64,000 nucleotides of DNA. Source: Flavobacteriaceae bacterium (GTDB lineage: Bacteria > Bacteroidota > Bacteroidia > Flavobacteriales > Flavobacteriaceae). Below are positions 33,688 to 37,846 of the stretch, one piece after another. The notes beneath the pieces are model-generated. The model ran no database searches, was not told where the DNA came from, and saw only the letters and a program-made list of their open reading frames with translations. Numbering within the stretch: the first letter of the stretch is position 1; the number at the start of each line of letters is the position of its first letter. The position numbers and the translations under genes are program-made. The stretch spans positions 1 through 64,000 of the forward strand of contig JAQWSC010000002.1 in the NCBI GenBank assembly GCA_029243385.1, written 5' to 3'.

Positions 33688-34047
33688 ATGAAAAAGTTTT
33701 TAGTAGGTCGTTTTCACGGTCTTTTGTATTCAATTAAAGGAGCTTATTATTTAATTAGAACAGAAGATGCAATTAAATTCCAGTCTTTCATTGCGCTGAC
33801 GCTTGTTTTTGCTGGTTTTTATTTTGAAATCACGACTACCGAATGGATGTTCCAATTGTTCACTTTTGGCTTGGTTATGGGGGTAGAAGCGCTCAACACT
33901 GCTATTGAAGATGTTGCGGATTTTATTCATCCAGAACACAACAAAAAAATAGGTATTATTAAAGATATCGGGGCAGGAGCTGTTTTTTTGGCTGCAATTT
34001 TTTCCATTGCAATTATTCTGATTATATACGTCCCGTATTTTCTTTAA
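33688..34047 (+). CDS. dgkA: Diacylglycerol/undecaprenol kinase family protein (DgkA)
   Basis: This small integral-membrane kinase of 119 residues has about three membrane helices and the family signature EALNTAIEDVADFI followed by KDIGAGAVFLAA. Enzymes of this type phosphorylate diacylglycerol or undecaprenol, feeding lipid recycling. It is divergent from the acylase gene and lies just left of the fic insert, with its stop 50 bp before the left direct repeat. Confidence 0.93.
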   Translation: MKKFLVGRFHGLLYSIKGAYYLIRTEDAIKFQSFIALTLVFAGFYFEITTTEWMFQLFTFGLVMGVEALNTAIEDVADFIHPEHNKKIGIIKDIGAGAVFLAAIFSIAIILIIYVPYFL

Positions 34048-34073: not shown

Positions 34074-34117
34074 AATTGCTTTTACGATAGTAAAAGTTAC
34101 TTTCCGATACAGCAATT
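34074..34117. repeat. Nested inverted repeats around the left copy of the mnmE-end repeat
   Basis: AATTGCT (34074-34080) matches AGCAATT (34111-34117) in inverse orientation. Inside it CTTTTAC (34079-34085) and GTAAAAG (34090-34096) form a 7-bp stem with a GATA loop. The hairpin ends exactly where the 15-bp direct repeat begins (34097). It could be a terminator for dgkA, or recombinase arm sites. Confidence 0.5.
34097..34111 (-). repeat. Left 15-bp direct repeat (copy of the mnmE 3' end)
   Basis: TTACTTTCCGATACA is identical to 35289-35303. On the minus strand it reads TGTATCGGAAAGTAA, the final codons and stop of mnmE. It is interpreted as the far attachment site of the insert. Confidence 0.8.
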
Positions 34118-34209
34118 AAATATGTACTGATAATCTAATAATTATACTTTTTAAGCAACAAATAAACAACAAGAAGTAATAAAATAGAGTCGTTTTAAGT
34201 CAAATAGAC

Positions 34210-35169
34210 TCAATTTGTGTATTTGTACTTTGTCAACCGATTTGCATCTATTTTCTCTAAAATATCATTATCAACTGCCCATTTTAAATCTCTGCTTGCG
34301 GTTGGTTGGCTAATATCTTTATAGGCTTGTAAATAATCCTTACGAGCGAATGAGGATGTACCTACTTTATCTCTGAACAACTCAATTCTATCTGCCACGC
34401 TAAGGTTTCTATTCTGCGATTTTAAAAGACTTTCTAATGATTGTAGTATTAGACCAAGCATAAACTCAATAAATGGCGTTGAGGTTCCCATTTTATCGGA
34501 CTTGGATAACACATCATAATATTGCTGCTGATTTTCTTTTATGAGGCTCTCAATAGGCAAATACTCAAATACTGGGTATTGTTGCATAAGGATTAGTGTT
34601 TGCCATAATCTTCCCATTCTACCATTTCCGTCTATAAATGGGTGTATAAATTCAAACTCATAATGAAATACACAACTTTTAATTAGTATTACGTCTTCAT
34701 CTTTCTTTAGATAGGTAAATAGGTCATTCGTTAATCCTTTTACCATATTTCCGCTTGGTGCTAAGTGAGCAACTTTAGAACCTTTGACAATACCAACGTT
34801 TTTAGTTCTAAGTTTACCAGCATCTTCAATTAGCCCTTGCATTAGAATTTTGTGGGCTTTTTCTAAATGTTTTAAACTATTGGGGTTAAAGCTGTGTAAT
34901 TGCTCATACACCTTAATAGCATTCTGAACCTCCACTATATCTTTCTGTGGTGCTAATACACGCTTATTCTCCAGCAATGCCGTTATCTGTTCCTCAGTAA
35001 GTGTATTACCCTCAATCTCTAATGATGATTGTATGTTTTTTATACGACTACGCTTCCTAAGTTCTGTTGGGGGTTTATATAAGTGCGTAGCGTTTATTTC
35101 TCCCAACTTCTCGGAAATGGAAACAACTAACTTTAGTACTTTATCTGTTATTTGGTACGGTAGCTTCAA
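34210..35169 (-). CDS. Fic family protein (AMP-transferase fold) with self-inhibitory helix and C-terminal winged-helix-like region
   Basis: The 319-residue protein has an intact Fic motif, HPFIDGNGRMGR, with catalytic His176. Fic enzymes usually transfer AMP to Ser, Thr or Tyr hydroxyls of target proteins. An (S/T)xxxE(G/N) inhibitory motif, SLEIEG at residues 49-54, lies N-terminal to it, which marks a class II, self-inhibited Fic. The C-terminal 50 residues (FARKDYLQAYKDISQPTASRDLKWAV) look like a winged helix-turn-helix, so it may bind DNA and control itself. The start is TTG at 35169; a stop lies 12 bases upstream in frame and no ATG is available nearby. It is the only gene in the repeat-bounded insert. 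The target protein is unknown. Confidence 0.9.
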   Translation of the reverse strand: MKLPYQITDKVLKLVVSISEKLGEINATHLYKPPTELRKRSRIKNIQSSLEIEGNTLTEEQITALLENKRVLAPQKDIVEVQNAIKVYEQLHSFNPNSLKHLEKAHKILMQGLIEDAGKLRTKNVGIVKGSKVAHLAPSGNMVKGLTNDLFTYLKKDEDVILIKSCVFHYEFEFIHPFIDGNGRMGRLWQTLILMQQYPVFEYLPIESLIKENQQQYYDVLSKSDKMGTSTPFIEFMLGLILQSLESLLKSQNRNLSVADRIELFRDKVGTSSFARKDYLQAYKDISQPTASRDLKWAVDNDILEKIDANRLTKYKYTN

Positions 35170-35173
35170 TATG

Positions 35174-35205
35174 TGATAGTATCATTTGATAGTATCGCAA
35201 AGATA
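35174..35205 (-). promoter_or_regulatory. fic promoter -7 box with two operator-like repeats
   Basis: On the minus strand a perfect Bacteroidota -7 box TATCTTTG (35205-35198) is followed by two copies of GATACTATCA spaced 13 bp apart (35196-35187 and 35183-35174). Each core is a near-palindrome with a single odd central base. They cover the expected transcription start just before the TTG start codon, which is the position for a repressor. No clear -33 TTTG was found. Confidence 0.5.
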
Positions 35206-35288
35206 TGAAATTATACGAAATGTTCATTTTTAATATCATTTTCAACCTAGCAGTCATACCTTTTTCTCCTATAAAAGGATTAATGTAC

Positions 35289-35303
35289 TTACTTTCCGAT
35301 ACA
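35289..35303 (-). repeat. Right 15-bp direct repeat (end of mnmE)
   Basis: TTACTTTCCGATACA, identical to 34097-34111. On the minus strand it encodes the last residues (CIGK) and the TAA stop of mnmE, so the gene is intact at this side. Confidence 0.8.
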
Positions 35304-36689
35304 AAAGCTTGAAAAAATATTTCCTAGCAAGTCATCGGTTGTAATTTCTCCCGTAATTTCTCCCAAATGATGAATGGTTTCTCGCAGATCGATAGCAAGT
35401 AGGTCACCTGAAATTTTAGCTTCCAATCCTTCTTGAACCAAGACAATACTTTTAAGGGCATGATTTAGTAATTCAAAATGGCGCGAGTTACTAACTACTG
35501 TATTGCCGACACTAGGTTTTGAATTTAGTTCCTCAGACAAAACACTTTTGAGGGCCCCTAACGATTTAGCATCCATGGTGCTTATTGCAATGATTGTTGA
35601 GCTGTAGCGATCCCTCCCTAAAGCATTTAATTTTTTTGTAAAGTCATTCTCAAAATAGCCGCCTAGCAAATCACATTTGTTTTGAACCAAAATAATAGTC
35701 AATTCCTTGCGTTGAAAGGTGGCGAGGTCTGCTAAAATTTCTTCAGGTGTTGTATCTAACTGATCGTATAAATAAAGTAAAATTCGAGCGTTAGAAATAT
35801 GGTCTTTTGCGCGTTCAACTCCGATAGCCTCTATAGTATCGGAAGTTTTGCGAAGCCCAGCGGTATCAATAAATCGATAGGCAATACCATCAATTATCAG
35901 AGTGTCCTCAATGCTATCTCGGGTAGTCCCTGCAATATCAGAAACAATGGCTTTGTTTTCGTTCAACAAGGCATTGAGTAATGATGATTTTCCTGCATTG
36001 GGCTTGCCTGCAATGGCAACGGGAACACCATTTTTAAGAACATTTCCTGTAGAAAATGAGTCTAACAAATTTTGAAGGATTCCTTTTATTTTTAGCACCA
36101 ACTCATAAAAGGTGTCCATGTCTGCAAAAGCCACATCTTCTTCAGAAAAATCCAATTCTAGTTCAATCATTGAAGCAAAATGCAATAATTCTTCGCGCAA
36201 GTTCTTTAAATGATTGCTAAAGCCACCTCGCATTTGTTGCATTGCAATTTGATGTGCACCTTGGTTTTCAGAAGCGATCAAATCAGCGACTGCCTCGGCT
36301 TGACTCAAATCCATTTTTCCATTCAAAAAAGCTCGTAATGTAAACTCTCCAGCGTCTGCTAGGCGAATCCCGTTGGACACAAACAGCTGAAGAATTTGTT
36401 GTTGCACATAAACTGACCCATGACACGATATTTCTACCACATCTTCTCCTGTATATGAGTGAGGATTTTTGAATACGGTAACTAACACCTGATCCAAAAC
36501 ACGACTTTCTTGATACAAATGTCCCAAATACACAGTGTGTGATTTTTGATCTGAAAGTTTTTTTTGATGAATCGAACGAAAAACCTTATCAACTGACTGA
36601 ATGGATTGGTCTCCTGAAATGCGAATAACCGCAATAGCTCCCATTCCCGACGGAGTAGCTAACGCAATAATAGTATCTTGTTGATTCAT
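35289..36689 (-). CDS. mnmE: tRNA modification GTPase MnmE
   Basis: With MnmG, MnmE makes the 5-carboxymethylaminomethyl modification at the wobble uridine of certain tRNAs. The protein has 466 residues from ATG 36689 (MNQQDTIIALATPSGMGAIAVIRISG, the conserved N-terminal folate-binding domain). A longer frame to 36782 overlaps the neighbour and was rejected. The inserted G domain has GKPNAGKSSLLN, DTAGLRKTSD and QNKCD. The C-terminal FCIGK carries the conserved cysteine and coincides with the right attachment repeat. A TATTTTTG -7-like box lies at 36702-36695. Confidence 0.97.
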   Translation of the reverse strand: MNQQDTIIALATPSGMGAIAVIRISGDQSIQSVDKVFRSIHQKKLSDQKSHTVYLGHLYQESRVLDQVLVTVFKNPHSYTGEDVVEISCHGSVYVQQQILQLFVSNGIRLADAGEFTLRAFLNGKMDLSQAEAVADLIASENQGAHQIAMQQMRGGFSNHLKNLREELLHFASMIELELDFSEEDVAFADMDTFYELVLKIKGILQNLLDSFSTGNVLKNGVPVAIAGKPNAGKSSLLNALLNENKAIVSDIAGTTRDSIEDTLIIDGIAYRFIDTAGLRKTSDTIEAIGVERAKDHISNARILLYLYDQLDTTPEEILADLATFQRKELTIILVQNKCDLLGGYFENDFTKKLNALGRDRYSSTIIAISTMDAKSLGALKSVLSEELNSKPSVGNTVVSNSRHFELLNHALKSIVLVQEGLEAKISGDLLAIDLRETIHHLGEITGEITTDDLLGNIFSSFCIGK

Positions 36690-36721
36690 AGTCGCAAAAA
36701 TACAACAAAGGTTGCGAACAC

Positions 36722-37846
36722 CTAAATTTCTTTGCGATAGGTTCTGCGACGTTTGGTTAATTGGTAAGGATATTTTTTCCATAGCGCAAGCATGGCTTTG
36801 TTTTCCTTGAGCGTGGGATTGGTTTCGATTTTAAAAATCCCTTTGCGATCCAATGTTCGATGTACCTCATCAAAAAGAATAGCATTTAGTCCCTTTTGTC
36901 GATATTCTGGTAAAATTCCAATCAAATAAGTCGAAACAGAGTCGTGACAACGTAATGACTTTAGAATATGAAAAAATCCAAACGGAAATATAGAACCGTT
37001 TGCTTTTTTCAATGCTTTGGAAAATAAAGGCAATACAATAGCAAAAGCAATAAATTTGCCGTCTGACTGCGTTATGCATTTAATGTATTTTGGATCAATG
37101 TATTGAAAGTATTTTTCTTTGTAATAATTGATTTGATCCTCCTGAATGGGTACAAAAGACTCGAGTTGGTTGTAGGTATTATTTAGCAAATCAAACATCT
37201 TATCTACATAGGGAATCAATTCCTTGGTTGATTTAAATTGAAGGACTTTCAGCGCGTATTTTTCCAAAATAATTTTTGAAATCCGTCTTATTTTTTCGGG
37301 AGATTCAGCATATTTAGGAATGGTTATAGCAAACTCCAGCCATTCCGATGCGATTGAAAATCCCAGAGCCTTTAGATGTTCTTTTTGGTAGGGGTTATGA
37401 TACCACGTGTTCATGCTATTGAGCTTATCGAAGCCTTCGCAAAGGAGACCGGCTTTGTCCATGTTTGAAAATCCAACTGGACCTTCTATAAAATGGAGGT
37501 TTTTTTGCTTTCCATAAGAGATTACAGTGTCTAAAAGCTTTTTACTTATTTGGATATCATCCTCAACATCATACCAACCAAAAAGAATTTTCGATTTTTT
37601 TTGTTGATCGACTTCAATCCAGTTTACGATTGCGGCTATTCTTCCGACTATTTTCCCTTTTTTTTTGGCAACAAAAAACGCTGCCTCAGCATTTTTGAAA
37701 ACAGGGTTTTTTGAAGGATTCATAAAGTGCCTTTCTTCTTTGGTTATTGGAGGAACCCAATAAGGACAATTTTTGTAGAGTTTGAAAGGAAATTTGATAA
37801 AGGCTGTAAGTTCTTTTTGATTTTGGATTTGGTGGACAGATATCAT
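36722..37846 (-). CDS. GNAT-like acyltransferase-fold protein of unknown function
   Basis: The 374-residue soluble protein has an N-terminal block FPFKLYKNCPYWVPP and KNAEAAFFVAKKKGKIVGRIAAIVNW, typical of an acyl-CoA N-acyltransferase fold. It continues with EGPVGFSNMDKAGLLCEGFD and a C-terminal GILPEYRQKGLNAILFDEVH that resembles the GNAT acetyl-CoA loop (QxxG/A-like). Homologues in flavobacteria are variously labelled GTP cyclohydrolase or N-acetyltransferase; only the second is compatible with what is visible. It is 9 bp downstream of the outer-membrane protein gene on the same strand. Confidence 0.7.
   Translation of the reverse strand: MISVHQIQNQKELTAFIKFPFKLYKNCPYWVPPITKEERHFMNPSKNPVFKNAEAAFFVAKKKGKIVGRIAAIVNWIEVDQQKKSKILFGWYDVEDDIQISKKLLDTVISYGKQKNLHFIEGPVGFSNMDKAGLLCEGFDKLNSMNTWYHNPYQKEHLKALGFSIASEWLEFAITIPKYAESPEKIRRISKIILEKYALKVLQFKSTKELIPYVDKMFDLLNNTYNQLESFVPIQEDQINYYKEKYFQYIDPKYIKCITQSDGKFIAFAIVLPLFSKALKKANGSIFPFGFFHILKSLRCHDSVSTYLIGILPEYRQKGLNAILFDEVHRTLDRKGIFKIETNPTLKENKAMLALWKKYPYQLTKRRRTYRKEI

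Follow-up and report, generated by a model that had tools for sequence, protein, structure and literature searches.

The cis-mobilizable element (CIME), as defined in PMC5704250, is an island bounded by attL and attR from which the integration and transfer genes are gone and in which the flanking core sites are kept, and which can be mobilised through accretion with an active element; elements of the IME and ICE kinds carry their own integrase and, in most cases, a relaxase. The same source places the insertion site of SGI1 and MGIVchHai6 at the 3′ end of trmE in Gammaproteobacteria, and the integrase of SGI1 belongs to the IntCTnDOT subgroup (PMC8138268). NBU1 enters a tRNA-Leu gene (PMC5704250), and ICEs of the ICECleSHZ29 type in Flavobacteriaceae and Weeksellaceae use tRNA-Met or tRNA-Glu genes (PMC12561888). 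Among Fic proteins, of which class 2 is described in PMC12249575, E. coli SoFic is reported to act in phage-induced abortive infection, with a 47-residue antitoxin encoded downstream (PMC12249575).

Here, the 3′ end of mnmE (trmE) was analysed in a stretch of 64,000 nucleotides from a member of the Flavobacteriaceae, hereafter called the window. Like a CIME, the insert found there is without integration and transfer genes and has its flanking cores; it retains both cores and the right arm, a left arm was not found, and the unit amounts to just 1.2 kb and one gene. Stacking of units at mnmE, also considered in relation to CIMEs, is suggested in three relatives (L136, L139 and L046). Unlike an IME or ICE, the window insert has neither an integrase nor a relaxase, whereas an island at mnmE in genome G184 has both. 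This G184 island is likened by its genes to NBU-type IMEs, with which it shares an integrase, a helix-turn-helix gene, a primase-like gene, a NikA-like gene and a MobA/VirD2-type relaxase; the target of NBU1 is tRNA-Leu, in contrast to mnmE for these islands, and the window copy is without NBU-type genes. The ICECleSHZ29-type ICEs likewise occupy the 3′ terminus of a conserved gene and have a perfect short repeat (17 bp; PMC12561888), but their targets are tRNA genes, unlike mnmE here. With SGI1, the window site shares the trmE/mnmE 3′ end as target and the broad integrase subgroup, although SGI1 belongs to a different phylum and its integrase and backbone genes are absent from the window insert; the parallel with SGI1 drawn in the earlier note therefore extends to the target gene and the broad integrase subgroup and not to the element itself. 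With SoFic, the window Fic shares the class II layout, a PADLOC match and the fold; only 98 bp separate fic from the distal core, which is too little for a 47-codon antitoxin gene as in E. coli SoFic. We consider it quite probable that the insert is a decayed CIME-like island at mnmE that has shrunk to a SoFic-like defence gene.

The insert and the end of mnmE

The features of the target gene and of the insert boundaries are as follows.

35289–36782, minus strand: mnmE (trmE), the target gene (Pfam MnmE_helical and TrmE_N)
35289–35303, minus strand: mnmE-side core site TGTATCGGAAAGTAA, the final 15 bases of mnmE (sequence scan)
34112–35288, minus strand: insert between the cores, 1177 bp (1192 bp including one core), 33.1% G+C
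34097–34111, minus strand: distal core site, an exact copy of TGTATCGGAAAGTAA (sequence scan)
33688–34047, plus strand: dgkA, the chromosomal neighbour past the distal core

A scan of the window found TGTATCGGAAAGTAA exactly at 34097–34111 and 35289–35303, both on the minus strand, and the right copy constitutes the final five codons of mnmE (C-I-G-K-stop). The likely start of mnmE is the ATG at 36689, many relatives aligning from about residue 28–36. In the whole 1.69-Mb genome no copies beyond these two were found with up to one mismatch. With up to three mismatches there were three matches in the window against a shuffle mean of 2.65; since this is about the shuffle level, the information is carried by the exact pair only. 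The G+C content of the insert is 33.1%, compared with 36.9% for the window. Between the cores, fic is the sole open frame of at least 60 codons, and among frames of this length neither a recombinase or integrase gene nor a relaxase was found. The locus is thus as the earlier note had described it: the perfect 15-bp direct repeat bounds the insert at exactly the positions given, translation of the frame confirms that mnmE ends, stop codon included, with the 15 bases of the right copy, the cargo is a single Fic with no other frame of at least 60 codons between the cores, the open-frame list contains no integrase in the insert, and the repeat proved rare, with just two occurrences in the genome when up to one mismatch is allowed.

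The same-genus genome G001 (92% complete) gave no match to fic, and one core-like site is present within the 9.9 kb examined at one end of its dgkA contig, but the intergenic DNA aligns too poorly for this to be called an exact empty site. Two contigs of G001, C43 (L035) and C85 (L036), overlap by ∼141 bp and diverge exactly inside the mnmE core; this parting resembles an assembly branch and may reflect both occupied and empty sites in the population.

The fic gene and its product

The features of fic and of its upstream region are as follows.

34210–35169, minus strand: fic, 319 amino acids, TTG start, SoFic-like class II Fic (frame, profiles, alignment and structure model)
34609–34644, minus strand: Fic active-site motif HPFIDGNGRMGR, residues 176–187 (translation, alignment)
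35008–35025, minus strand: Fic inhibitory-helix motif SLEIEG, residues 49–54 (translation, alignment)
35175–35196, minus strand: operator-like double repeat GATACTATC-N4-GATACTATC immediately upstream of the fic start (sequence scan)
35198–35205, minus strand: promoter-like TATCTTTG (read by eye)

The TTG start aligns with the position of the start codon in relatives, which is mostly ATG with a few TTG or GTG. The Fic active-site motif HPFIDGNGRMGR satisfies the pattern HPFx(D/E)GNGRxxR, and SLEIEG is an N-terminal inhibitory motif of the form (S/T)xxxE(G/N). SLEIEG is unvaried across all 15 aligned Fic proteins and GNGR is present in 14 of the 15, the exception being a Myroides protein (L129) with GNGQ. 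In Myroides pelagicus (L129, 6001–6975), this close relative with GNGQ in place of GNGR lies away from mnmE, and a second Fic-like frame stands behind it.

The structure model of the window Fic has a mean pLDDT of 74.8 and is the sole good one of five, the other four having means of 53–58. Its C-terminal part forms a winged helix (helices 258–269, 276–282 and 288–300; strands 304–308 and 314–317), for which the pLDDT is 76–91 from residue 261 and 65 for residues 251–260. Among solved proteins the fold most closely matches 4rgl (37%), and SoFic is among the best matches. The PADLOC SoFic model gives 159 bits; the NCBIfam SoFic equivalog cut-off of 550 bits is not reached by the window Fic, which scores 61.3 bits. 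By analogy, from which all of its biochemistry is drawn, the protein is probably a self-inhibited AMPylating defence toxin. Eight Fic relatives were found in IMG/VR, with identities of at most 49%, and the best relative on a plasmid, from Bergeyella porcorum, is 64.6% identical.

Upstream of fic, the order is the promoter-like TATCTTTG, then the double repeat and then the start codon. The sequence TATCTTTG fits TAnnTTTG, the consensus of the Bacteroidota −7 promoter box, and the window contains no second GATANTATC-N4-GATANTATC. At least a single GATANTATC was found upstream of fic in all 22 relatives at ≥70% identity (15 of them with the double form), in 16 of 17 at 60–70%, in 22 of 33 at 50–60% and in six of 34 below 50%, counts which contain some same-species repeat loci and from which loci cut near the start are excluded. 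From this arrangement we infer that the winged helix of Fic may repress its own promoter (autorepression).

Integration at the 3′ end of mnmE in Flavobacteriales

The survey comprised 81 region loci (L046–L126) out of 98 relatives of the same family and order. Three loci without a recognisable mnmE end were left out, giving 78 regions, for each of which up to 20 kb downstream of mnmE was taken (1.31 Mb in total; in ten regions it was below 5 kb). In 18 of the 78 regions a tyrosine recombinase gene, truncated in one case, closely follows mnmE and has the same orientation; the weakest E-value among the 18 calls is 8e-5. Exact copies of the core TGYATHGGNAARTRR occur six times in the mnmE direction downstream of the 78 mnmE genes (two in tandem in G062, and one each in G009, G059, G061 and G019), compared with none in each of the three controls, namely the other strand and the reversed pattern on either strand. 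When one mismatch is allowed, there are 28 forward copies against 11, 13 and five in the controls, an excess so much weaker that single weak matches mean little; one such match, with one mismatch, lies at 13 kb in L089. A stricter first pass over 66 loci gave eight forward copies with up to two mismatches against two, one and zero in the controls. The core-like matches in L071 and L104, with two mismatches, were treated as chance.

Five integrases at the mnmE site were compared with Pfam (two of the 18, and those of G184, G287 and, in two pieces, G443). All have catalytic and SAM-like domains, and four of the five have an arm DNA-binding domain; the G443 integrase is split over two loci, and its separate short N-terminal piece has no Pfam match. 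A distal core further out together with an integrase beside mnmE was found in G071 (21.0 kb) and G032 (41.6 kb), and islands with both cores are present in G287 (18.2 kb) and in G019 (14.0 kb, with the truncated integrase). The recombinase genes, the forward-only core copies and the distal cores together mark the mnmE 3′ end as a hot spot of integration within Flavobacteriales. No paper on integration at the mnmE/trmE 3′ end in Flavobacteria or Bacteroidetes was found in open-access full text. The proposal of the earlier note of a site-specific insertion of the tyrosine-recombinase type at the mnmE 3′ end holds, with a recombinase in 18 of the 78 regions and an arm site inside the distal core of the window.

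Several other arrangements were observed at this site. The island of G019 (L064; 0.6–1.0 kb and 14 kb past the end of mnmE), with its truncated integrase and distal core, has heavy-metal efflux-like genes (by eye). In G062 (L046, 5397–7031), three successive cores delimit two modules (632 and 988 bp) in which there are small genes but no integrase, and the right end of the second module is 73% like that of the window across 97 bp. In G061 (L101, 15646–19392), a 4.3-kb module between cores contains one gene of 1248 amino acids with an nSTAND3 NTPase domain. In a Lishizhenia MAG (L139, 3832–6957), mnmE and a second core flank a HipA-type kinase and its helix-turn-helix partner; the second core ends a duplicate of the last ∼27 mnmE codons, longer than elsewhere, and fic follows. 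In Halpernia humi (L136, 5943–6957), fic lies after a core that shares the strand of mnmE and is ∼49 kb downstream of it, an arrangement that would arise if a second element had inserted itself between mnmE and a fic unit already present.

Islands carrying fic and fic-only inserts

From the best 80 Fic relatives, 31 loci were scanned for cores and 22 were read gene by gene. In two islands with an integrase and two cores (G184 and G443), fic comes last among the genes, in front of the distal core, and is directed as mnmE is, and the window Fic is 73–77% identical to the Fic of these two islands. The G184 island (15.9 kb) runs from the mnmE core through the integrase, the helix-turn-helix gene, the primase-like gene, the NikA-like gene and the MobA/VirD2-type relaxase (Pfam), and then through ABC-transporter and other genes (by eye) to fic and the core. 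The island of Epilithonimonas hungarica (G443; ∼18.4 kb) consists of the integrase, restriction-modification-like genes (by eye), fic and the core; names of the XerC/XerD, restriction-modification and ABC-transporter kinds were read by eye without Pfam. In Mesonia aestuariivivens, 1.7 kb with a helix-turn-helix gene (HTH_17) lies between mnmE and fic. Among the 31 scanned loci, most have no core, three have fic alone between two cores (L127, L130 and L131) and L128 has two cores, with fic preceded by 1.7 kb; among 29 further Fic loci, with some species repeated, a distal core was found in two.

Between the window and seven others, Fic is 71–79% identical and mnmE 50–55%, as horizontal spread would give, although fic and mnmE may just evolve at differing rates. 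In the Fic tree, the window protein is not close to that of any integrase-bearing island.

The three fic-only inserts at mnmE are those of Flavobacteriaceae RhTr2, Aestuariivivens sediminicola and an Aequorivita MAG (three of the 31 scanned), and all have the same layout: mnmE, a gap of 0.2–0.3 kb, fic, and a core ∼0.1–0.2 kb beyond. In the Aestuariivivens copy, 126 bp that include the core still match the left end of the G184 island at 85% identity and are followed by a stretch alignable to 27 N-terminal residues of the G184 integrase; at the right end, identity is 82% over 277 bp. In RhTr2, the left end matches Mesonia over 87 columns (72%), and 83 bp upstream of fic are 86% identical to Mesonia, the first 42 of these being the end of a Mesonia open frame of 146 codons. 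The right end of the window insert is 78% like that of Aequorivita over 96 bp including the core; the left sides of these two inserts gave no island match beyond short weak ones. Two of the three other fic-only inserts thus retain traces of larger islands, and those of RhTr2 and Aestuariivivens look, from these alignments, like products of internal deletion.

Arm-type sites

One further feature lies within the insert.

34152–34175, minus strand: arm-type site TTCTTGTTGTTTATTTGTTGCTTA, 64 bp inside the distal core (class-B profile, ungapped left-end matches)

The sequence TTCTTGTTGTTTATTTGTTGCTTA resembles the left arms of a group of integrase islands (G028, G030, G044, G054 and G047; ‘class B’). 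A profile was trained on the left ends of G028, G044, G054 and G047, the window being outside the training set. Its top match in the whole window, on both strands, is at 34175–34152 on the minus strand, with a score of 17.2 against 9.4 for the next, and its maximum over 400 random 305-bp plus-strand pieces is 6.7. Because the motif had been spotted by eye before the profile was built, this test is independent in its data and not blind. A regular-expression search for arms had given nothing useful, and the profile was used in its place. The position of the top match 64 bp inside the distal core indicates that the right end of the insert is an attachment end of the integrase type. Among 16 right ends scored with this profile, only two are conspicuous at the arm position, that of the window with 17.2 and that of Aequorivita with 12.4; Epilithonimonas gave 6.8 away from this position and the rest gave at most 2.7, so that other islands appear to have other arms.

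In several islands, paired arms lie ∼104–124 bp inside the mnmE-side core and 59–64 bp inside the distal core. The left and right arms of the same island resemble each other in four of six (G184, G443, G287 and G032), and no such match was found in G071 and in G019, with its truncated integrase. Out of 11 left ends, the island's own ranked first for G184, G443 and G287 only; for the right arm of G032, the left end of another island scored 18.6 compared with 12.2 for its own, and one unrelated pair of ends scored 19.2, owing to an AT-rich alignment that does not lie at the arm position. On the left side of the window insert no such arm was found; in Aequorivita a left arm was not found, in RhTr2 there is none at the arm position and in Aestuariivivens there is part of one, so a whole integrase-side arm was found in none of the four fic-only inserts.

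The class-B integrases of G028, G030 and G044, from three genera, are 94.5–98.9% identical, whereas mnmE of G044 and G030 is 82.1% identical, which suggests that islands of this type move between genera. The window genome (99% complete) contains no full-length relative of these integrases; the best match is 33%, to the catalytic part of a 222-amino-acid gene, and apart from this gene its recombinases comprise two that by eye have the size of XerC/XerD and a 77-amino-acid piece at a contig end. By eye, the tyrosine recombinase at C1:34696–35178 in G000 seems to be without its N-terminus, and at the end of C9 a recombinase piece lies beside a second hibernation-factor-like gene.

Origin of the insert

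If the insert is a decayed island, an ancestral element would have entered the 3′ end of mnmE by way of a CTnDOT-type (arm-binding) tyrosine recombinase. The parent would have resembled the islands with the integrase gene beside mnmE, in two of which fic is last before the distal core. An internal deletion would then have taken out the integrase together with its left arm and the remaining cargo, while the two cores, the right arm and fic, intact and with its promoter and operator, stayed in place. In this pattern of decay everything towards mnmE is lost and fic is kept with the distal end; fic may be retained by selection. No island showed a match to the left portion of the window insert, so the deletion in the window copy is presumed from the derivatives in the other bacteria, which it would resemble.

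Alternatively, fic with its right end could be a passive cassette that moves as a 1.2-kb circle by means of the integrases of resident islands. The retention of both cores and the right arm in the window, the fic-only units at mnmE in four bacteria including this one, the near-identical class-B integrases (94.5–98.9%) in the three genera of G028, G030 and G044, and the tandem integrase-less modules of G062 are all in keeping with such movement, but the window copy has no left arm and, with that arm lost, may not be a full substrate. Furthermore, RhTr2 shows none at the arm position, none was found in Aequorivita and Aestuariivivens has just part of one, two of the three other fic-only inserts bear traces of bigger islands, neither a circle nor an empty site was seen, and the window genome has no full-length class-B integrase relative, so that we regard the cassette as improbable. 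Of the two possibilities offered in the earlier note, a remnant or a minimal passive element, the traces of islands in two of the three other fic-only inserts favour the remnant, and the minimal mobile unit is disfavoured in that a whole integrase-side arm was found in none of the four. A wider proposal, which we put forward as speculative and rather unlikely, is that mnmE ends in Flavobacteriales hold defence units of ∼1–4 kb without mobility genes that are moved or stacked in trans by the arm-binding integrases of resident islands, so that defence genes would spread in this form. The units in question would be of one or two genes (fic, HipA with its partner, the nSTAND3 NTPase) with a core at both ends and, for the fic units, one arm.

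A third explanation, in which the chromosomal XerC/XerD proteins use the core as a dif-like site in the manner of pdif modules with no dedicated integrase, appears very improbable. Single-gene modules without an integrase do resemble pdif modules, and some core copies have short inverted arms (TTACTTTC-TGTATCG-GAAAGTAA, by eye), but the arm sites lie at least 60 bp off and the integrases at mnmE are arm-binding, which fits integration of the lambda/CTnDOT type and not Xer. That the repeat arose by chance or by local duplication of the mnmE tail, with fic an ordinary resident gene, was rejected as the least probable of all, for although a 15-bp repeat is short by itself, the DNA is AT-rich and a duplicated mnmE tail of ∼27 codons exists in the Lishizhenia MAG, the pair is unique in the genome at up to one mismatch, an arm matching the integrase-type profile adjoins the distal copy, core copies in relatives are forward only (six against 0/0/0), and fic was not found in the same-genus G001 while a like layout recurs in other bacteria.

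In conclusion, the analysis adds to the earlier note the arm sites, the parent-type islands with fic at the distal core and the fic-only inserts in three other bacteria. The window insert draws attention to a hot spot of integration in Flavobacteriales, on which searches of the open-access literature found no paper, and the arm sites of the integrases permit the ends of an island to be recognised once the integrase itself is lost. What island decay leaves behind here is a defence-type gene, and it becomes testable whether fic is kept by selection or whether the unit can still be moved in trans.
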